Source: Lachnospiraceae bacterium
GTDB taxonomy: Bacteria > Bacillota > Clostridia > Lachnospirales > Lachnospiraceae
Length of the DNA: 64,000 bases
Assembly (NCBI GenBank): GCA_022794255.1
Contig: JAAWEL010000089.1
Coordinates: 24,757 to 88,756 of the forward strand
Direction of reading: 5' to 3'
Below, piece by piece: positions 9,968-53,013 of this stretch. A program made the translations under genes and the position numbers. The notes under the pieces were generated by a model. That model did no database searches, had not been told where the DNA came from, and saw nothing but the letters and a program-made list of their open reading frames with translations. Positions within the stretch are counted from its first letter, which is position 1, and every line of letters begins with the position of its first letter.

Positions 9968-10698
9968 TTATTGATTATCCTATTTTTAATGTAACGTCTG
10001 AAGCTTACTGGAAATAATTTTAAAAAGAACTGATAAATCTTTGTTGTTTTGATTCTTTTGATTTTCCAATATACCCAGTTGTGTTCTTTTCTTTTCAATT
10101 TTCTAAAATTTTTCACTTTTTCTATTTGAAGCGATTCTTCATCAGTGTCTATCTCATTATAAAAAGCGCCTATATTCTTTGCTGAATGTGCATCACTTCC
10201 AACCATTGTAACTAAATGATTATATTTTTTTAATATATCATCCATTTCCTTTGTATTGCCATATTTATAGTTTGCCTGTTCAATAAAACTTGCGTTTAAT
10301 AAAACATATTTGGCATCTATTTCTTTTATATTGGTATTGCCGATTACTCCAGTAGAGTGATTTGGATGGGGTACAATAATCACAGCATTTTCTTCTGACA
10401 AACGATCCACAAGCCTTCTTGCAGAATAACTTCCTCTTTCTTTCTCCAACTTCTTTATTTCATCCGATACTCCGATTATGTGGACGCCTTCAGAAGTTGT
10501 AAACTCAATTCCTTTCATTAATTGAATCTTATTCGATTCAAACATCCTTTCATCTTCTCTTGTTAAACCATAGACATCATGATCACATATAACAATTCCG
10601 TTAATTCCCTGCTTTTTACATTGATTAACAATTTTTCTTATTGGAAGTGATGAATCGATCGAATAGCATGTATGGCAATGTGACTCAACTCGTATCAT
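9964..10698 (-). CDS. PHP-domain metal-dependent phosphoesterase
   Basis: A 244-residue protein with N-terminal ESHCHTCYSIDSSLP (H-x-H motif) and GIVICDHDVYG, both metal-binding signatures of the PHP domain. VTMVGSDAHSAKNIG supplies the later D-A-H motif. PHP proteins hydrolyse phosphoesters, and in polysaccharide clusters some act as tyrosine phosphatases (CpsB/Wzb type) or sugar-phosphate phosphatases. It overlaps both neighbours by 4 bases. No Wzc-type tyrosine kinase is seen here, so a regulatory phosphatase role is uncertain. Confidence 0.78.
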   Translation of the reverse strand: MIRVESHCHTCYSIDSSLPIRKIVNQCKKQGINGIVICDHDVYGLTREDERMFESNKIQLMKGIEFTTSEGVHIIGVSDEIKKLEKERGSYSARRLVDRLSEENAVIIVPHPNHSTGVIGNTNIKEIDAKYVLLNASFIEQANYKYGNTKEMDDILKKYNHLVTMVGSDAHSAKNIGAFYNEIDTDEESLQIEKVKNFRKLKRKEHNWVYWKIKRIKTTKIYQFFLKLFPVSFRRYIKNRIINK

Positions 10699-11990
10699 TT
10701 TTCACACCTTACAAACGCAAGCTTTTTTCCTTCTCCGCTTCTTATAGCTTCTTTTCCATTGCTTATAAAAAACTCTATGTTTTTTGGCAATCGAGATACA
10801 AATTCCTCTTGCAGCTTGAATTTTATTTCATCATTGACTCGTCTTTCAATGATTAGTTCCACCCGGTCCATTCCATGTTGAACAATCTGCCAGGAGAACA
10901 CGGTTGGATAATGTTCCATTATTGTATAAAAATTAGTTAAAGGAATATTTCTGTCTTTTAATTTGATTGCCATATTGTTTCTTCCAATAACATTTTTTAT
11001 CGTCCTGAAAGAATGGCCGCAAGATATCTCATTACTTGCAATCTCTGCCAAATCATTGGTCTCATACCTTAACAGGGGCATCGCATAATTGTTCAAGTTG
11101 GTTCCCACAATTTTTTTTTGACTGGCATCACCGGTTTCTAAAAACTCCATATAACCATATTCTTCAAACACATGAAGCCCTTGATGCTTTCCACAATCTC
11201 CGGCAGCCACAATGCATTCAGCCATTCCATAATAATTTGAAATCTTTGCCTCAAAGGCACCCTCTATTTTCCGCCTTGTATCATCGCTTAACACCTCAGA
11301 AGCTGTAAATATGCCTTTGAGCTTTGGTATCTTATGACCACTTTTTGTGACATAATCAGCCAATAGTTCCAATGATGAAGGATATCCTCTGAGAAACTTA
11401 ACCTTATTTTTTATCATATGATTAAGATATTTTTCCATATTACTGTCCGTCATATCGTATGGACTATAATAGATAAAGTTTCTTATCTTATCATATTTAA
11501 TTATTTTTTTTGCCCGTTCGTTTTTAGGCGCATAGGAACGAACGATTGCCATTCTATCCCGAAAACGATAGCCAGCCCATTTCCATTGTCTCCAGACGGT
11601 GGCTTGCTCCATAATCCATTGTTGTTTTGATACCAATACCTCCAAAGGATTACCTGTAGAGCCGGATGTTTGTTGAATCAGCGCCTTTGTCTTATATTTA
11701 GGATTTATAAACTGGCTGTGATATTTTCTTACATCCTCTTTTCTTGTTAATGGAATTTTCTCAATATCTTTTAATTCTTTAAAATCCCGGTCCACGTCAA
11801 AATTTATTTTATGAAATAATTGTCTATAGTAGGGAATCTGGTTTTGACAAATTTTCAGCAATTTTTTTAATTTTCTTTTTTGATAATCCTCTATTTTTCC
11901 TCTTGAAAATTTGCATGATCTCATCAAAAAAAACTTACAATAAAAAATCCCTTCTGCTGACAGCATTAAATCTTTTATTTTATCAAACAC
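10695..11990 (-). CDS. PaaK/CapK-like adenylate-forming enzyme
   Basis: A 431-residue protein of the phenylacetate-CoA ligase-like family often called CapK in capsule loci. The ATP-binding motif is QQTSGSTGNPLE and the later ISNYYGMAEC corresponds to the adenylate-binding YG-x-x-E region. It may activate an organic acid for transfer to the glycan. The start is GTG at 11990, with GGAGG nine bases upstream. That ribosome site lies inside the 3' end of the full-length reading of the preceding acetyltransferase, so translation of this gene may depend on the acetyltransferase frame. Confidence 0.8.
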   Translation of the reverse strand: MFDKIKDLMLSAEGIFYCKFFLMRSCKFSRGKIEDYQKRKLKKLLKICQNQIPYYRQLFHKINFDVDRDFKELKDIEKIPLTRKEDVRKYHSQFINPKYKTKALIQQTSGSTGNPLEVLVSKQQWIMEQATVWRQWKWAGYRFRDRMAIVRSYAPKNERAKKIIKYDKIRNFIYYSPYDMTDSNMEKYLNHMIKNKVKFLRGYPSSLELLADYVTKSGHKIPKLKGIFTASEVLSDDTRRKIEGAFEAKISNYYGMAECIVAAGDCGKHQGLHVFEEYGYMEFLETGDASQKKIVGTNLNNYAMPLLRYETNDLAEIASNEISCGHSFRTIKNVIGRNNMAIKLKDRNIPLTNFYTIMEHYPTVFSWQIVQHGMDRVELIIERRVNDEIKFKLQEEFVSRLPKNIEFFISNGKEAIRSGEGKKLAFVRCEK

Positions 11991-11995
11991 CGTAT

Positions 11996-12485
11996 TTAGC
12001 CTCCATTTATCTCTGCTTCTGTTCTCATCCGTAATATCTTAGCTGGCACCCCCCCCCACGACTGCCCGGGCTGGTACATCCTTTATGACTACAGCATTTG
12101 CTCCTACAATTACATCATCACCAATTACGATCGGACCAAGAATTTTTGCTCCTGTTCCTACATGAACCCGGTCTCCAATAACTGGCACAATACTGCGAAT
12201 ACTGTCATATTCCGGAATTGCTTTATTGCTTTTTCCTGCCCCTCCTCCAATCGTAACATTGGTTCCAATCATACAGTCATTTCCAATTTTTGCTTCGCTG
12301 TGAATCACCAGACCAATCCCTTTATATCCGAATTCTGTTCCTCTTCCAATTGTACAAGTATATGGAACATACGAATTGTGAATGAAATAAATCCAGCTTC
12401 TGATAATCCAGGCAACCGGTTTCAAATGATGAAGATAGCACCATCGCTCTAATCTATATTTATTGATTGCACTCATTTTACTCAT
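11996..12485 (-). pseudogene. serine-acetyltransferase-like hexapeptide O-acetyltransferase, out of frame at a poly-G9 tract
   Basis: Left-handed beta-helix acetyltransferase of the CysE/WcaB type: IGNDCMIGTNVTIGGGAG, then IGDRVHVGTGAKILGPIVIGDDVIVGANAVV. The tracked ORF stops at 12039 with an abnormal end (VVGGGAS). Reading the nine G as eight restores the family ending VVGGVPAKILRMR and a stop at 11996, six bases before the next gene's start, with that gene's ribosome site overlapping the restored end. It would O-acetylate a sugar of the operon 1 glycan. It is either a slipped-strand ON/OFF gene, a fixed frameshift or an assembly error. Confidence 0.8.
12049..12057 (-). repeat. poly-G9 homopolymer in acetyltransferase gene
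   Basis: Nine consecutive C on the plus strand (G9 on the coding strand) in AT-rich surroundings. It sits at the 3' end of an acetyltransferase gene, and changing its length by one base (to G8) restores the conserved C-terminus. This is the classic arrangement of a slipped-strand contingency tract. Confidence 0.9.
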
Positions 12486-22171: not shown

Positions 22172-22750
22172 TTAATGCAACGCTATACCAGACATTTCCA
22201 CGGAAATCTCTGTATTTTCATACAGAAGCTTCCGCTCAGCATCCTCCTTCAGCATAATTCCTAACACAATCGCCTGATCCTCCCCCCATAATCTGTGGCG
22301 GATCATGGCATATCTCTTTTTAAATTGGTATTTTTCAATTTGTTCCCTGCAAATCCCCAAAGGCTCTGAAATCCTGCAAACCTGCCCCTGCTCATTCTTC
22401 AAAACATAGGAAAGTTTGACCATATGATCTTCCCCGGATATTTTTTTCAAAAATTCCCCGTCTTCTTTCATCATAGGAAGGATTGTCAGATTTTTGCAGG
22501 CAAGCAGATTTGCAATAGCTGGAATCTGTTCAAAACGTTTAATAAGAAAGCCCTGCTCTTCACAGGTAAGAAACACACATCCAGGAAACAAGGGTTCCAC
22601 ATGAACAACACTTCTCTGTTGTTTTCTCCATATCCGCTCCTGATAAATCACAAAACATTCATTATATAGAAAGGAAGGAACAGTTCTGGTAATCTCATTT
22701 ACCAGTTCTTTTTCTTTTCCCACCCATGTTTTTAACAAATACCACCGCAT
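22172..22750 (-). CDS. NusG-family antiterminator paralogue, NGN-KOW form (LoaP/UpxY type), operon 1
   Basis: A 192-residue protein with an NGN domain (MRWYLLKTWVGKEKELVNEI, VEPLFPGCVFLT, FEQIPAIANLL) and a KOW-like domain in the last third (ISEPLGICREQIEKYQFKK). This matches specialised NusG paralogues that ride with RNA polymerase through one long operon. It is the shorter of two paralogues at the head of operon 1 and pairs with the 188-residue protein at 50653-51219. Two NusG paralogues per operon is unusual. One might antiterminate and the other modulate it, but no evidence decides this. Confidence 0.82.
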   Translation of the reverse strand: MRWYLLKTWVGKEKELVNEITRTVPSFLYNECFVIYQERIWRKQQRSVVHVEPLFPGCVFLTCEEQGFLIKRFEQIPAIANLLACKNLTILPMMKEDGEFLKKISGEDHMVKLSYVLKNEQGQVCRISEPLGICREQIEKYQFKKRYAMIRHRLWGEDQAIVLGIMLKEDAERKLLYENTEISVEMSGIALH

Positions 22751-22835: not shown

Positions 22836-23612
22836 TCAGCACCCACGTTTGCGCAAAATTTCCGCTGGTATCTCAATCGTCATATTTTGCCCCAAAAGGT
22901 ATACGCCGACTTTTACCATATGATTCTTCACCTCATAAACCACTCCGGGCATTCCTTCAAAGGCTCCGCTAATTACCACAACGGAATTTCCCGGAAAGAA
23001 TACGGGCAATCCTTTTTTTGCCTCCGGCTCCTCATGGATTCTATATTGCTCCGGCACCTGAATTGGTGCCTCCACCTTCCCGTAGCGCAGCTCCTGCCGA
23101 ATATCTTCATCCAGAACAATCCCCAGCAAAACAGTTTTCTCTTCTCCCAAAATCCTCAATCGTACAATCACGTGTCTTTTTCCAAATCGGCAACGGACAA
23201 TCCCGGTAACACAAGCCTTCAATGGTCCTGTTACCTGGCGAATATTTCCCTTTTCATCAGTTGACAAATAAGAAAGGCGGATCACATGATCATCACTCAT
23301 GATTCTTTTCAAAAATGCTTCTTCTTCCTTCTCAACAGTAAGGAAAAAAGATTCGTCATCTGCCATCATTTTTGACATGGCCGGAATCTGCTTCAAACAA
23401 AAAAACAGAGCCTCCGGCTCTTTGGATGTAATAAATACATATCCTGGAAATGCCCGCTTTACATGAACAAAATTTTTCTGCTGTCTTCGCCAAAGTTGCT
23501 CATGATAAACTACGAAACATTCTTCATACAAATAGGAGGGCACGATTTTTTGTATCAGACCTATCACCTTTTCTTCTTCACCAGTTCTTGTCTGAAGTAC
23601 ATACCATCGCAT
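22836..23612 (-). CDS. LoaP-like NusG paralogue with two KOW-like domains, operon 1 leader gene
   Basis: A 258-residue protein: NGN domain at about 1-110 (MRWYVLQTRTGEEEKVIGLI, VKRAFPGYVFITS), a first KOW-like domain at about 125-180 (VTGPLKACVTGIVRCRFGKR) and a second at about 205-255 (GNSVVVISGAFEGMPGVVYEV). NusG proper has only one KOW, so the extra one is notable. It is the first gene after the invertible cassette and the conserved leader, which is the position of UpxY in Bacteroides and LoaP in Firmicutes. It probably lets polymerase read the more than 23 kb of operon 1. Confidence 0.85.
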   Translation of the reverse strand: MRWYVLQTRTGEEEKVIGLIQKIVPSYLYEECFVVYHEQLWRRQQKNFVHVKRAFPGYVFITSKEPEALFFCLKQIPAMSKMMADDESFFLTVEKEEEAFLKRIMSDDHVIRLSYLSTDEKGNIRQVTGPLKACVTGIVRCRFGKRHVIVRLRILGEEKTVLLGIVLDEDIRQELRYGKVEAPIQVPEQYRIHEEPEAKKGLPVFFPGNSVVVISGAFEGMPGVVYEVKNHMVKVGVYLLGQNMTIEIPAEILRKRGC

Positions 23613-23685
23613 AACCTATATCTCCTTCCTCTCATCCACAAATCCGATCACGTTTCTGGAGCGAATCCATCGATAGTTAAAATGA

Positions 23686-23826
23686 GCAAGCTTCGCCATT
23701 TCCCGATTATTGAAATCAATAACCCAGACCATCAATACTATGGCAGACCATAGTCAATATAACCCCTTTCCGGAAAATGCAGTCTCCAGGCTCACTATTT
23801 TCCTTCCCGGTTTTGTCCAAAATAAA
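23686..23826 (-). promoter_or_regulatory. conserved operon 1 leader (candidate structured antiterminator RNA)
   Basis: The untranslated region between the cassette and the first loaP-like gene shares several blocks with the operon 2 leader. One block, at about 23758-23826, begins on the RNA with AACCGGGAAGG and ends GGAAAGGGGUUAUA. Next comes a hairpin (23737-23754) with stem ACUAUGG/CCAUAGU, then UCUGGGUUA (23720-23728), then UAAUCGGGAAAUGGCGAAGC (within 23686-23709). The hairpin position is conserved while its stem sequence is entirely different in operon 2, a covariation sign of selected RNA structure. It is probably recognised by the LoaP-like protein or polymerase. Confidence 0.65.
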
Positions 23827-23895
23827 TAGCCATATGATTTTCATTCTCTTTTCAGATATAAAGCAAAGAAAACCCACGGCCCTGATCTTGTTCAA

Positions 23896-23935
23896 TGCAA
23901 CACAATTGGAAATTGTGTTGCACTGAGAGTTACTT
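23896..23935 (+). repeat. cassette 1 left inverted repeat
   Basis: A 40-bp repeat identical to the reverse complement of 24730-24769. Its core is palindromic, with arms CAACACAAT and ATTGTGTTG flanking the 5-bp spacer TGGAA. This is the expected build of a tyrosine-recombinase crossover site: two recombinase-binding arms and a strand-exchange spacer. Confidence 0.9.
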
Positions 23936-24015
23936 AAAATATTAGTAAATATCAGGAAATAATCTTGACAAGGTAGATACAGTCAAATAGCAAAAGAATA
24001 GGAAGATACCTCAAT

Positions 24016-24594
24016 ATGCAAAAAACACATCCTATCAAAGATGCAAAAGACATTCAAAAACTAAAGCAATATTATTTAGACAGACAGCAAATACGGAATT
24101 ATACTCTTATCACTCTTGGGATAAATACTTCACTGCGAATTGGAGATCTACTGCTTTTAAAATGGGAAAATGTTTATGATTTTTGTAATCGATGTTACTA
24201 CAAACATTTGAAAGTCTGTGAACAGAAAACAGGGAAGAATACCCTGATTGCCTTGAACAGAGAATCTTTGTTAGCTCTGAAAAGTTTGAAAGAATCTATA
24301 TCCCCTGTATTAGAAAAAGATTATTTATTTAAGAGCAGAGAAGGAATAAACCGCCCTATCTGCCGTACACAGGCATTCCGCATTATCAAAAAAGCGGCTG
24401 ATTCGCTTCATATCGAAGGAACCATCAGTTGCCATTCTCTCCGGAAAACCTTTGGCTATCATGCCTGGCGAAAGGGGGTTCCACCTGCTGTTATCATGAC
24501 TATTTACAATCATTCCTCTATGGAAGTCACGAAGCGTTACCTGTCCATCGACCAAGATGACAAAGATCAGGTCTTTTTGGAATTAAATCTGTAA
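24016..24594 (+). CDS. Fim-type tyrosine recombinase (DNA invertase) of cassette 1
   Basis: A 192-residue site-specific recombinase made of the catalytic domain only, the size of FimB/FimE/MrpI. All catalytic residues are visible: Arg41 (TSLRIGD), Lys71 (EQKTGK), His140 and Arg143 (CHSLRKTFGYHAW), His166 (YNHSS) and the nucleophile Tyr175 (KRYLSID). The gene lies inside the inverted repeats, so it flips with the cassette. A TTGACA at 23965-23970 may belong to its own promoter. It is similar along its whole length to the enzyme at 52293-52871. It should catalyse inversion between the 40-bp repeats. Confidence 0.92.
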   Translation: MQKTHPIKDAKDIQKLKQYYLDRQQIRNYTLITLGINTSLRIGDLLLLKWENVYDFCNRCYYKHLKVCEQKTGKNTLIALNRESLLALKSLKESISPVLEKDYLFKSREGINRPICRTQAFRIIKKAADSLHIEGTISCHSLRKTFGYHAWRKGVPPAVIMTIYNHSSMEVTKRYLSIDQDDKDQVFLELNL

Positions 24595-24653
24595 AGCAGC
24601 TGTCTGGCCTGAATGAACCATTACTCAGTAAAAAAATTCTTAAGAAAATTCCT

Positions 24654-24681
24654 CCTGTTTTTCCAGAAAATCTTAACCCTT
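24654..24681 (+). promoter_or_regulatory. 28-bp box upstream of the invertible promoter, identical in both cassettes
   Basis: This box reads CCTGTTTTTCCAGAAAATCT followed by TAACCCTT and is identical base for base to 52895-52922. It lies about 15 bases before the -35 element. The recombinase genes on one side have diverged, so perfect conservation here suggests a binding site for a shared activator, repressor or accessory factor. Confidence 0.6.
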
Positions 24682-24696
24682 TCACCAGAAAAGAAC

Positions 24697-24725
24697 TTGC
24701 ATTAAGAAGGAAAGAGTGCTATGAT
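24697..24725 (+). promoter_or_regulatory. outward sigma-A-type promoter of cassette 1
   Basis: The -35 TTGCAT (24697-24702) and -10 TATGAT (24720-24725) are separated by exactly 17 bases. Transcription would start about 7 bases later, at the edge of the right repeat. The same layout occurs in cassette 2. In this orientation it transcribes rightward, antisense to the 3' end of operon 2. Confidence 0.78.
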
Positions 24726-24729
24726 TACG

Positions 24730-24769
24730 AAGTAACTCTCAGTGCAACACAATTTCCAATTGTGTTGCA
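24730..24769 (-). repeat. cassette 1 right inverted repeat
   Basis: A perfect 40-bp inverted copy of 23896-23935, with spacer TTCCA on the plus strand (the complement of TGGAA). It lies 19 bases from the stop of the last operon 2 gene. Confidence 0.9.
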
Positions 24770-24788
24770 CTGAGCTAAGAATGAGTAA

Positions 24789-32013: not shown

Positions 32014-32705
32014 TTATTCGTCAATATATTTTTCTATCCCTTCAATCCAGACTGCATACCCATTCCCATTTAAATGAACACCATCTGTTGAATATAATTC
32101 TGTTATTATTGCACCATCTTCCTCAAATAAGTCATGTAAATCAATATATGTAACTGCCTCATATTCATTACAGATTTTCTGATAGCTTGCATTTAGCACT
32201 TCTACCTTTTCATCTGGAACATTTGCTGCCGGAAAAACACTTATTATATATATTTTGCAGTCCTTTCTACTTCCTGAAAGTATAGCGTCAATCGTTTTTT
32301 TCAGATATAACATTGTATCATCACCTGGTACATTCCGGCCCAGATCATTAATTCCTATATTAATAAATATTTTACCTGGATGATGGCTTAAGACTTCATT
32401 GATCCTGTGATAAATACCCTCTGCTGTATCTGATCCGATTCCACGGTTAATAACGGTTCCTTTATCCGGAAAAAATTCTTCAAATCTCCCGCCTAATGTA
32501 ATACTGTCGCCGACAAATGCTATTTCCGCATCTCCTATTTTACTGTTACTAAACATACTAACGTATGCATCATACTGGGGATTCATTGAATAATTATATT
32601 CCCCCCCCCACCCACTTCAACAATTTCTTTATTTTTATGGTGATCTAATAGCGAAAAAATTAAAAACAATAAGCTGATTTTAATAATCCAAGCACTCTTT
32701 TTCAA
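32014..32705 (-). pseudogene. SGNH/GDSL esterase whose N-terminal membrane anchor is out of frame at a poly-G9 tract
   Basis: The SGNH domain has block I FVGDSITLGG, block III INIGINDLG and block V DGVHLNGNGY. The tracked ORF starts at ATG 32586. Upstream, a frame beginning at TTG 32705 encodes a signal-anchor-like lead (KKSAWIIKISLLFLIFSLLD), runs into the G9 tract and, as sequenced, is one base out of frame with the esterase. G7 or G10 would fuse them into a 230-residue exported esterase. The domain itself is intact, so a cytoplasmic form may still be made. The TTG lies inside the end of the upstream gene. Confidence 0.65.
32601..32609 (-). repeat. poly-G9 homopolymer upstream of the SGNH domain
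   Basis: Nine consecutive C on the plus strand (G9 on the coding strand) between the anchor-like lead and the SGNH domain. Adding one G or removing two joins the two frames. It is the second G9 tract in the window and the same kind of arrangement as 12049-12057. Confidence 0.88.
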
Positions 32706-50652: not shown

Positions 50653-51219
50653 CTATCTGGGCACCTCCACCGAAACTTCCATATTCTCATACAAAAGTTT
50701 CTTCTCGGCATCCTCCTTTAGTATAATTCCCATTGCGATTGCCCTGTCTTCTCCCCACAGCCGGTGGCGAACCATAGCATATCTCTTTTTAAATTGATAA
50801 CGCTCAATCTGGCCCTCACAAGATCGCAGTGGGTCTGTCATTTTACAGATTTGACCCTGCTCATCTTTTAATACATAAGAAAGTCTTACCACATGATCTT
50901 CCCCAGATATCTTTTCCAGAAAATCCGCATCCTCCTTTATCATGGGAAGAATCGTCACATTTTTGCAATTTACCAGCCGGGACACAGCCGGGACTTGGCT
51001 AAGCCGTGTATACACAGATTCCGGATCTTTACAGGTAAGGAATGCACAGCCGGGAAATAATGATTCCATATGCACAATACTCCTTTGCTGCCTTCTCCAA
51101 ATCCGCTCCTGGTATATGACAAAACACTCTTCATACATATGAAGAGGAACGGTTCTGCGAATTTCCTCTACCAGGCCCTCTTCTTTTCCCACCCATGTTT
51201 TTATCAAACACCATAACAT
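50653..51219 (-). CDS. NusG-family antiterminator paralogue, NGN-KOW form, operon 2
   Basis: A 188-residue protein with an NGN domain (MLWCLIKTWVGKEEGLVEEI, MESLFPGCAFLTC) and a KOW-like C-terminal region (MTDPLRSCEGQIERYQFKK). It is the counterpart of the 192-residue protein of operon 1 and overlaps the upstream loaP-like gene by 16 bases. It probably helps RNA polymerase traverse the 27-kb operon 2, or modulates its partner. Confidence 0.82.
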   Translation of the reverse strand: MLWCLIKTWVGKEEGLVEEIRRTVPLHMYEECFVIYQERIWRRQQRSIVHMESLFPGCAFLTCKDPESVYTRLSQVPAVSRLVNCKNVTILPMIKEDADFLEKISGEDHVVRLSYVLKDEQGQICKMTDPLRSCEGQIERYQFKKRYAMVRHRLWGEDRAIAMGIILKEDAEKKLLYENMEVSVEVPR

Positions 51220-51947
51220 AGGCGTTTCTCCTTCCTTTCCGATATAGCATCAAGGCACTTTTCTTCTTTCCCCTGTATTGCATTCTGAATCTCTGATCCT
51301 TTATTTATTGGCCTTTGCCCTTTAGGCACGAGAATGGGCACACCAGATGGCTGTACATCCAGAGCCTTCCCTGGCTTATATTGCCCCGAAGCCAGAAACG
51401 GTGCTTCCACCTTTTCGTATTTCAATTCTTCACAAATATCTTCATGAAGCACAATCCCCAAAAGAACCGTCTTTTCCTCCTGATGCAGTTTAAATCTTAC
51501 CAGTACATACCGCTTTTTAAACCGACACTGCACAATCTGAGATACACATGCTTCCAATGGGCCCGAAACCTGGCGAATATTTCCTTTCCCGTCTGTTTCC
51601 ATATAAGAAAGGCGAATCACATAATCTTCATTCATGATCCTTCTCAAAAATTCCGCCTCTTCCGATTCCAGGGAAAGAAAAAAGAAATCCTCATCTGCTA
51701 TCATCCGAGACATAACCGGAACCTGTTTCAGGCAAAAGAACAGGGATTTGGGCTCCCTAGAAGTAATAAACACGTACCCAGGAAATGCCCGTCTTACATG
51801 AACAAAATTCTGCTGTTGCCTTCTCCATAGCAATTCCTGGTAGACTACAAAGCATTCCTCGTATAAATCATTTGAAACCATCTGGTGGATCAGATCTACC
51901 AGTTTCTCTTCTTCGCCGGTTCTCGTCTGCAGTACATACCATAGCAT
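51204..51947 (-). CDS. LoaP-like NusG paralogue with degenerate second KOW, operon 2 leader gene
   Basis: A 247-residue counterpart of 22836-23612. The NGN domain (MLWYVLQTRTGEEEKLVDLI, VRRAFPGYVFITS) and first KOW-like domain (VSGPLEACVSQIVQCRFKK) are kept. The region matching the second KOW is replaced by a lysine-rich, unlike tail. I moved the start from 52013 to ATG 51947: it matches the operon 1 protein start, has a GGAAGG site, and the longer version would translate the conserved leader block. Confidence 0.83.
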   Translation of the reverse strand: MLWYVLQTRTGEEEKLVDLIHQMVSNDLYEECFVVYQELLWRRQQQNFVHVRRAFPGYVFITSREPKSLFFCLKQVPVMSRMIADEDFFFLSLESEEAEFLRRIMNEDYVIRLSYMETDGKGNIRQVSGPLEACVSQIVQCRFKKRYVLVRFKLHQEEKTVLLGIVLHEDICEELKYEKVEAPFLASGQYKPGKALDVQPSGVPILVPKGQRPINKGSEIQNAIQGKEEKCLDAISERKEKRLCYGV

Positions 51948-51985
51948 ATCGAATCTTCCTTCCTCTGCTTCCAGGACAAAAAAGG

Positions 51986-52170
51986 GTAAGCTTCGCCATT
52001 TCCCGATTACCACGAAGCATCCAAAAAACGCTGCTCTGACACGTCTTTAAGATTAAACATAGTAACCCAGATAATTAAATGCGATGCAGCATCGCAGCTG
52101 GTATAACCCCTTTCCAGGAACCGCAGCCTCTAGACTCACGATTTCCCTTCCCGGTTTTTTACAAAATAAA
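51986..52170 (-). promoter_or_regulatory. conserved operon 2 leader (candidate structured antiterminator RNA)
   Basis: It carries the same blocks in the same order as the operon 1 leader: AACCGGGAAGGGAAA to GGAAAGGGGUUAUA (52103-52170), a hairpin with stem UGCGAUG/CAUCGCA (52080-52096), UCUGGGUUA (52063-52071) and UAAUCGGGAAAUGGCGAAGC (within 51986-52009). The hairpin stem shares no sequence with its operon 1 counterpart yet sits at the same place with a 3-4 base CUG-containing loop. Confidence 0.65.
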
Positions 52171-52175
52171 GGATC

Positions 52176-52216
52176 GAGTACAACACAATATGTAATTGTG
52201 TTGTACTTAAAATTAC
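52176..52216 (+). repeat. cassette 2 left inverted repeat
   Basis: A 41-bp repeat matching the reverse complement of 52973-53013 at 35 positions. Arms CAACACAAT and ATTGTGTTG surround the spacer ATGTA. The arms equal those of cassette 1, while the spacer differs. Confidence 0.82.
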
Positions 52217-52292
52217 ATATAAATTGAGTAAAATGCTGGTAATATAAGGATATGGCAGAGAATGCCAAATACGGGCACGGAGGTGCGTAAAT

Positions 52293-52871
52293 ATGCAAAA
52301 GACACAGCCAATCAGAAACACCAGGGATATTCTCAGACTGAAGCAATATTATCTGGACAGAAACCAGATACGCAATTATGCCCTGCTCACCTTGGGCATG
52401 AATACTTCCTTAAGAATCGGAGATCTGTTGCTCTTAAGGTGGGAAAATGTTTATGACTTTCACAGGAATTGCTATCACAAGCACTTAGAGGTTCTTGAAC
52501 AGAAAACAAGAAAGAATACCCGGATTGCCTTGAATAAAGAAGCGGTCTTATCTCTTCAGAATTTAAAAAATTCATTGGCTGTTGTATCTGGTGAGGATTA
52601 CCTTTTCCGGAGTCGTCAAGGCCAAAACCGTCCCATCAGCCGTTCACAGGCATTTCGCATCATAAAAAATGCTGCCAACAGTCTCCACATTACGGGAACC
52701 ATCAGCTGCCATTCCTTAAGAAAAACCTTCGGCTACCATGCGTGGAAAAATGGGATTCCTCCGGCCGTAATTATGGCAATTTACAATCACTCCTCTTTGG
52801 ATGTGACCAAACGCTACTTATCTATTGACCAGGATGACAAGGATAAAGTGTTTTTGGAGTTGAATCTATAA
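52293..52871 (+). CDS. Fim-type tyrosine recombinase (DNA invertase) of cassette 2
   Basis: A 192-residue catalytic-domain-only tyrosine recombinase, the same length as and aligning without gaps to the cassette 1 enzyme. Catalytic residues are all present: Arg41 (TSLRIGD), Lys71 (EQKTRK), His140/Arg143 (CHSLRKTFGYHAW), His166 (YNHSS), Tyr175 (KRYLSID). A GGAGGTG ribosome site precedes the ATG. The strongest differences from the paralogue lie in the middle (about residues 56-110), which may reflect site preference. Confidence 0.92.
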   Translation: MQKTQPIRNTRDILRLKQYYLDRNQIRNYALLTLGMNTSLRIGDLLLLRWENVYDFHRNCYHKHLEVLEQKTRKNTRIALNKEAVLSLQNLKNSLAVVSGEDYLFRSRQGQNRPISRSQAFRIIKNAANSLHITGTISCHSLRKTFGYHAWKNGIPPAVIMAIYNHSSLDVTKRYLSIDQDDKDKVFLELNL

Positions 52872-52894
52872 AATAATTTCTTAAGAATTTTAAA

Positions 52895-52922
52895 CCTGTT
52901 TTTCCAGAAAATCTTAACCCTT
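52895..52922 (+). promoter_or_regulatory. 28-bp conserved box upstream of cassette 2 promoter
   Basis: Identical over 28 bases to 24654-24681 and in the same place relative to the -35 element. It contains the imperfect palindrome TTTTTCCAGAAAA. Confidence 0.6.
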
Positions 52923-52937
52923 CCATCAGAAAAAAAC

Positions 52938-52966
52938 TTGCAATATAAATAAAAGAGTGCTATGAT
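52938..52966 (+). promoter_or_regulatory. outward sigma-A-type promoter of cassette 2
   Basis: The -35 TTGCAA (52938-52943), 17-base spacer and -10 TATGAT (52961-52966) are followed by TACGAAGTAACT, as in cassette 1. It would start transcription at the edge of the right repeat. Here it fires rightward, antisense to the DUF805 gene. Confidence 0.78.
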
Positions 52967-52972
52967 TACGAA

Positions 52973-53013
52973 GTAACTTTGAGTGCAACATAATTACATA
53001 TTGTGTTACACTC
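52973..53013 (-). repeat. cassette 2 right inverted repeat
   Basis: It pairs with 52176-52216 with six mismatches. Its arms are themselves altered (CAACATAAT and ATTGTGTTA), so the recombinase-binding palindrome is imperfect. The spacer TACAT is the exact complement of the left spacer. Confidence 0.8.

Follow-up and report, generated by a model that had tools for sequence, protein, structure and literature searches.

The window analysed here is a stretch of 64,000 nucleotides of contig C63 (JAAWEL010000089.1, positions 24,757 to 88,756), from the assembly GCA_022794255.1 of a Lachnospiraceae bacterium (genome G000; 3.42 Mb, 87% complete). It carries two capsule operons, both on the minus strand: operon 1 occupies positions 126-22126 of the window and extends left to about C63:1093, and operon 2 lies at 24789-50619. 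The order of elements at both is the same, namely a cassette bounded by inverted repeats, a conserved leader, the genes of two LoaP-like NusG paralogues and then the capsule operon.

Cassette 1 (23892-24773) has arms of 44 bp (23892-23935 and 24730-24773) that are 98% identical, and it contains on the plus strand the gene of a tyrosine recombinase of 192 aa (24016-24594) and a promoter-like TTGCAT-N17-TATGAT (24697-24725) that is kept in relatives. Cassette 2 (52176-53013) has arms of 41 bp (52176-52216 and 52973-53013) that are 85% identical, with a recombinase gene of 192 aa (52293-52871) and a promoter-like TTGCAA-N17-TATGAT (52938-52966), again on the plus strand; as assembled, both promoter-like elements face away from their operon. 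The initial annotation had placed two inversion switches in the window, and both were found as inverted-repeat cassettes, each enclosing a recombinase gene. The motif TTGCAW-N17-TATGAT, a promoter by its consensus, occurs in all three cassettes of this genome (the third is described below) and stands beside the right arm in cassettes 1 and 2. The arms are each palindromic, including the left arm of cassette 1, and a palindromic arm is the usual form of a tyrosine-recombinase site. The cassette recombinases match PF00589, and all seven sequences compared keep R, HxxR, H and Y; with these catalytic residues intact, the enzymes presumably invert the cassettes.

The genes opening the operons, on the minus strand like the operons themselves, encode in each case a LoaP-like NusG paralogue (22836-23612 for operon 1, 51204-52013 for operon 2) followed by a second one. 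LoaP is known beside polysaccharide operons and is associated with a hairpin in the leader RNA, of the UNCG type in B. velezensis (PMC12691694). Against the LoaP family NF033641, which has a curated cut-off of 125 bits, the copy on contig C52 scores 127.2, the first genes of the window 122.3 (operon 1) and 105.3, and the second genes 77-80; NF033641 is the best family for all LoaP-like proteins tested, though the window copies score under the cut-off. The leader RNA between cassette and LoaP gene (23613-23891 and 52014-52175, both on the minus strand, and L082:96-410) is conserved and has a predicted covarying hairpin, in which 8 of 29 predicted pairs are altered on both sides in some sequence; it contains an invariant AAAGGGGTT, predicted to pair with AACCCTTTT. 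The Rfam search of the window, leaders included, gave no family match. The loci resemble LoaP systems in the family that their first genes match best, in the adjoining polysaccharide operon and in a predicted leader hairpin, and differ from them in the scores under the cut-off, in a hairpin loop that is not predicted as UNCG in the alignment and in having two LoaP-like genes in tandem. Such a pair opens every cassette operon, its second member (22172-22750 and 50653-51219 in the window; C52:1293-2000) being the more divergent, and by analogy this second gene could be a counterpart of the Bacteroides UpxZ inhibitors.

A third cassette lies outside the window, at the contig start (C63:1-1051). 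Its recombinase shares 82% identity with the cassette 1 enzyme, and the cassette belongs to contig C52, on which there are five G9 tracts and a polysaccharide gene cluster headed by LoaP. Reverse-complementing bases 942-1051 of C63, at the opposite flank, gives bases 1-110 exactly, and C52 starts with the same cassette 3 end joined to its own flank. The assembly therefore contains junctions of both orientations of cassette 3; these are possibly an assembly artefact, but such an artefact would have to reach over 100 bases past a 27-bp repeat. Heterogeneity in the population had been set beforehand as the check on the proposed variation and, applied to cassette 3 only, it was answered by these junctions of both orientations, cassettes 1 and 2 each being seen in a single orientation in the assembly. 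Among relatives, recombinase and promoter read toward LoaP at loci L109 and L110 and are reversed, reading away from LoaP, at L114, L117 and L118. The stretches read around the nearest recombinase relatives (L105-L107, L119) and around several rabbit-gut copies (L108, L111-L113, L115, L116) gave no LoaP match, so that the recombinase family is not limited to capsule cassettes.

Within operon 1, a G tract had been claimed in an acetylation gene, and this tract is present, its length deciding the reading frame. The hexapeptide (CysE/EpsC-like) acetyltransferase ORF, of 148 aa as assembled (12039-12485, minus strand), contains a run of nine G at 12049-12057 (C9 on the plus strand). Translated at G9, the protein has the C-terminus ...ARAVVGGGAS and a stop after 148 aa; at G8 it has 162 aa, regains the conserved GVPAKIL end and finishes in ...ARAVVGGVPAKILRMRTEAEINGG; at G11 it is the G8 protein plus one glycine, and G10 is out of phase like G9. 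We take G8/G11 to be the phase that encodes the enzyme, and regard G9 as assembled to be out of phase, because solved serine acetyltransferases (...ataagvparivsq, E = 8e-13) can be aligned with the G8 form over the tract without a gap. Among named families, serine O-acetyltransferase EpsC comes closest, with a score under its cut-off. Lacking its last 14-20 residues, the enzyme may perhaps merely be weakened. The following gene, on the same strand, encodes an AMP-binding (PaaK/CapK-like) protein (10695-11990), and its GTG start and ribosome site are found where the in-phase acetyltransferase reading ends, the ribosome site overlapping that end, so that the tract phase may also affect its translation. 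No homologue of the acetyltransferase at E <= 1e-40 was found in 150 family genomes, and its own tract therefore cannot be compared across species. The positions first singled out (11101-12485) take in these two genes, the AMP-binding one and the acetyltransferase. A run of nine T at 11111-11119, within that range, was considered as a variable tract and rejected, since A/T runs of 9 occur six times per 210 kb and are ordinary here.

The second G9 of the window (32601-32609, minus strand) had been described as a tract in the esterase of operon 2. The tract exists, but it is located between an acetyltransferase gene and the SGNH/GDSL esterase gene (32014-32586, minus strand), 14 nt 5' of the esterase ATG, and only at G10 does it join a short hydrophobic upstream frame (TTG at 32705) to the esterase, which also has its own ATG. 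Its consequence for the esterase is uncertain.

The C runs of the window number nine of length 6, one of length 7, none of length 8 and two of length 9. Over 210 kb of polysaccharide and neighbouring contigs of the same genome, the G/C runs include one of length 7, two of length 8 and 13 of length 9, and the 13 runs of at least 9 compare with 0.3-1.2 expected under Markov models of orders 1-4. As this stretch was picked partly for containing tracts, a count over the entire genome is fairer, and it gives 16 G9 runs, none longer, and five runs of exactly G8. Eleven of the 16 fall on three polysaccharide contigs that together amount to 5% of the genome (p = 3e-11). Beyond the two tracts of the window, seven more G9 tracts belong to the set of three operons, about nine in total, and operon 1 has such tracts also at C63:17210 and C63:18290. 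Pooling the polysaccharide contigs of this genome with those of three related ones gives 44 tracts, in 40 of which the coding strand carries the G.

The effect of run length on reading frame was assessed at runs flanked on both sides by open frames of at least 60 codons. Across G4-G6 the frame is kept in 454 of 485 cases in this genome and 414 of 457 in relatives (pooled 868/942), whereas across runs of at least 8 it is kept in 1 of 7 and 1 of 11 respectively (pooled 2/18, p = 1e-15). For 12 of the 16 G9 tracts, one nearby length unites two open frames; three of these are united already at G9, as expected under random phase. The other nine are out of frame as assembled, which is what would be seen if the broken genes were decaying pseudogenes and the G tracts accidental by-products, a reading that we regard as very improbable: both halves are open over long stretches with their domains retained, it is almost always at the G tract that the frame breaks, the tracts are concentrated in glycan genes, and one tract position is shared by two species. 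Pfam profile matches continue straight through several tracts (GtrII glucosyltransferase, acyltransferase-3, asparagine synthase), so that these look like single genes interrupted solely by tract length.

The tract-bearing genes are mostly concerned with glycan modification or transfer. A regulator rather than a glycan gene is affected at L014:1501-1509 (G000:C64:112846), where a G9 separates the receiver domain of a LytTR-type response regulator from its LytTR domain and G10 would reconnect them. Other G9 tracts lie 5' of a flagellin gene, a predicted secreted protein and a transporter gene (L015:1501-1509, that is G000:C64:129588, L016 and L002), where they could change expression instead of frame.

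All 16 tracts of this genome read exactly G9, and eight of the nine that are out of phase need G10 (p = 0.02), so that the assembly may under-call tract length. This uniformity would suit an explanation in which the inversion layer alone is real and the out-of-frame tracts are homopolymer errors of assembly or sequencing, the genes being intact in the cell. We consider this unlikely, as the isolate genomes Bacterium D16-56 (G003) and Clostridiaceae bacterium 1XD21-29 (G005) have such tracts at lengths of 8-12 G, mostly out of frame. Errors, moreover, cannot explain why long G runs are confined to certain genes while the G4-G6 runs retain frame, and even with miscalled lengths, G9-G10 tracts in coding genes would still be prone to slippage.

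At least one G9 run was present in all 24 genus genomes examined, with many in some, and the tracts studied in detail are mostly 8-12 long; among 120 family genomes the G9 counts are mostly 0-3 and a few are high, tracts longer than 9 being counted repeatedly. In one homologous pair of deacetylase-like genes two species have the tract in the same place, with G11 (out of frame) in D16-56 and G9 (in frame) in 1XD21-29, these off and on states being read from the frame phases. This pair bears on the possibility that each tract is a fixed slippery site at which transcription or translation shifts frame, which would set the ratio of two products and not a heritable on/off state. A G9 in otherwise open genes could indeed let polymerase or ribosome slip, and a uniform G9 suits a fixed tract, but the tracts of relatives span 8-12 and differ at a homologous site, as slippage on DNA predicts, and the in-phase share (3/12) is about that of random phase; we therefore give this explanation very little credence. 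As in poly-G contingency loci, the tracts are longer than expected by chance, switch frame and differ in length between species at one site.

A further feature is the dinucleotide TA, which stands directly after 39 of 70 tracts compared with 6.8% of G4-G6 runs (p = 3e-27), the count covering the tracts of contigs C35, C52, C63 and C64 of this genome and those of relatives (L051-L079, L090-L098, L141-L148). Immediate stop codons account for part only of this border, TAA or TAG being present in 17. It is conceivable, though we think it improbable, that the border reflects a sequence-directed process making or maintaining G tracts in the genus, beside promoter inversion in the same operons.

The two layers also occur together in relatives. 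In genome G021, contig C10 carries an inverton, a LoaP pair and then, downstream on the same strand, four G8 tracts, three of them out of frame; in D16-56, contig C202 has a site and a LoaP pair at its end, with G8 and G10 tracts 23 kb on in the same direction. The presence of both layers on one contig in these two genomes indicates that the pairing is not peculiar to the window assembly. D16-56 also has several segments of 270-290 bp with the same type of flanking site, no recombinase inside and a recombinase elsewhere. Its candidate invertible promoter segments lie at G003:C150:23147-23434, C6:1716-2015, C164:10088-10377 and C190:108476-108764 and at the ends of C202 and C135; on C150 a recombinase of the same family is 15 kb from the segment, a trans arrangement as against the self-contained cassettes of the window genome.

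We consider it likely that surface polysaccharides undergo phase variation in two layers at this locus. In the first layer, each capsule operon would be preceded by a self-contained invertible cassette whose sites are palindromic and which encloses a tyrosine recombinase gene and a single outward promoter; with this promoter facing the operon, the leader and the LoaP-like antiterminator would be transcribed and the long operon switched on, and when the segment is inverted the operon would be off. Inversion by the embedded recombinases and the activity of the promoter are the steps that we infer here. The inverted repeats around a consensus promoter, the two orientations (cassette 3 and relatives) and the intact recombinase residues all point to invertible promoters. 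In the second layer, poly-G tracts in acetyltransferase, acyltransferase, glycosyltransferase and other modification genes would change by replication slippage, so that each tract gene would be in frame about one time in three; tract length would presumably vary within a clone and the glycan would change with it. The anatomy, the frame effects, the tract lengths beyond chance, the junctions of both orientations at cassette 3 and the recurrence in related species are direct observations. The initial annotation had proposed layered inversion and slipped-strand variation, and this proposal is well supported by anatomy and comparison, through the domain families broken and restored, the cassette 3 orientations and the relatives, except that the esterase effect is uncertain; judged from sequence, the system would also be larger than first described, with three switches and about nine tracts.

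Each mechanism is already known singly. In Bacteroides fragilis, according to passages of PMC11892184 and PMC12691694 that cite Krinos 2001, Coyne 2003 and Chatzidaki-Livanis 2009, capsule promoters are invertible, with the Mpi recombinase and UpxY antiterminators. The likeness lies in a set of several capsule operons that each have an invertible promoter in front and a gene for a NusG-type antiterminator first, and in the mixed orientations of B. fragilis populations, to which the mixed orientation of cassette 3 in the assembly corresponds. Mpi, however, is a serine recombinase, whereas the window genome has a tyrosine recombinase inside the inverted segment; the arrangement is not one in which a serine recombinase serves many promoters in trans, and the resemblance is only in the way of working. 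The antiterminators also differ, being LoaP-like and not UpxY, and the poly-G tracts are an added second layer; the trans arrangement of D16-56 is nearer to Bacteroides than the window cassettes are. In the Hin/fljBA system of Salmonella, Hin is a serine recombinase that controls flagellin. As there, the recombinase gene and an outward promoter both lie within the inverted segment, but here the recombinase is of the tyrosine type and the proposed control is of a capsule operon, by way of a LoaP-like antiterminator.

The poly-G contingency loci of Campylobacter and Neisseria have about 8-12 G in surface-glycan genes, many of them out of frame and clustered in glycan loci (PMC11868660), and the present tracts resemble them in length, in the genes concerned, in the frequent out-of-frame state and in clustering; they differ in their host, a member of the Lachnospiraceae (Clostridia), in belonging to operons that are also under putative invertible promoters, and in the TA after most tracts. 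Among the invertons of Clostridia, group 139 is described in PMC11892184 as having linked tyrosine invertases and orientations that shift in culture and in mice. The cassettes are likewise candidate invertible elements of gut Clostridia with a nearby tyrosine-type recombinase, a likeness by description and not an assignment to the group, and the searched text of PMC11892184 makes no mention of NusG or LoaP in connection with group 139. In the open-access literature our searches brought up no account of poly-G contingency loci in Lachnospiraceae, of both layers in one capsule operon or of their combination in Clostridia; within that literature, what is new is this combination in one capsule locus.

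The sequenced isolates D16-56 and 1XD21-29 make layered variation directly testable. If the reading proposed here is true, a group of gut Lachnospiraceae unites the two best-known routes of surface variation in single operons, and the choice of capsule and its decoration would switch independently. Three cassettes and about nine tracts would allow a large number of possible surface types, and such variation would be relevant to phage escape, antibody recognition and the coexistence of strains in the gut.
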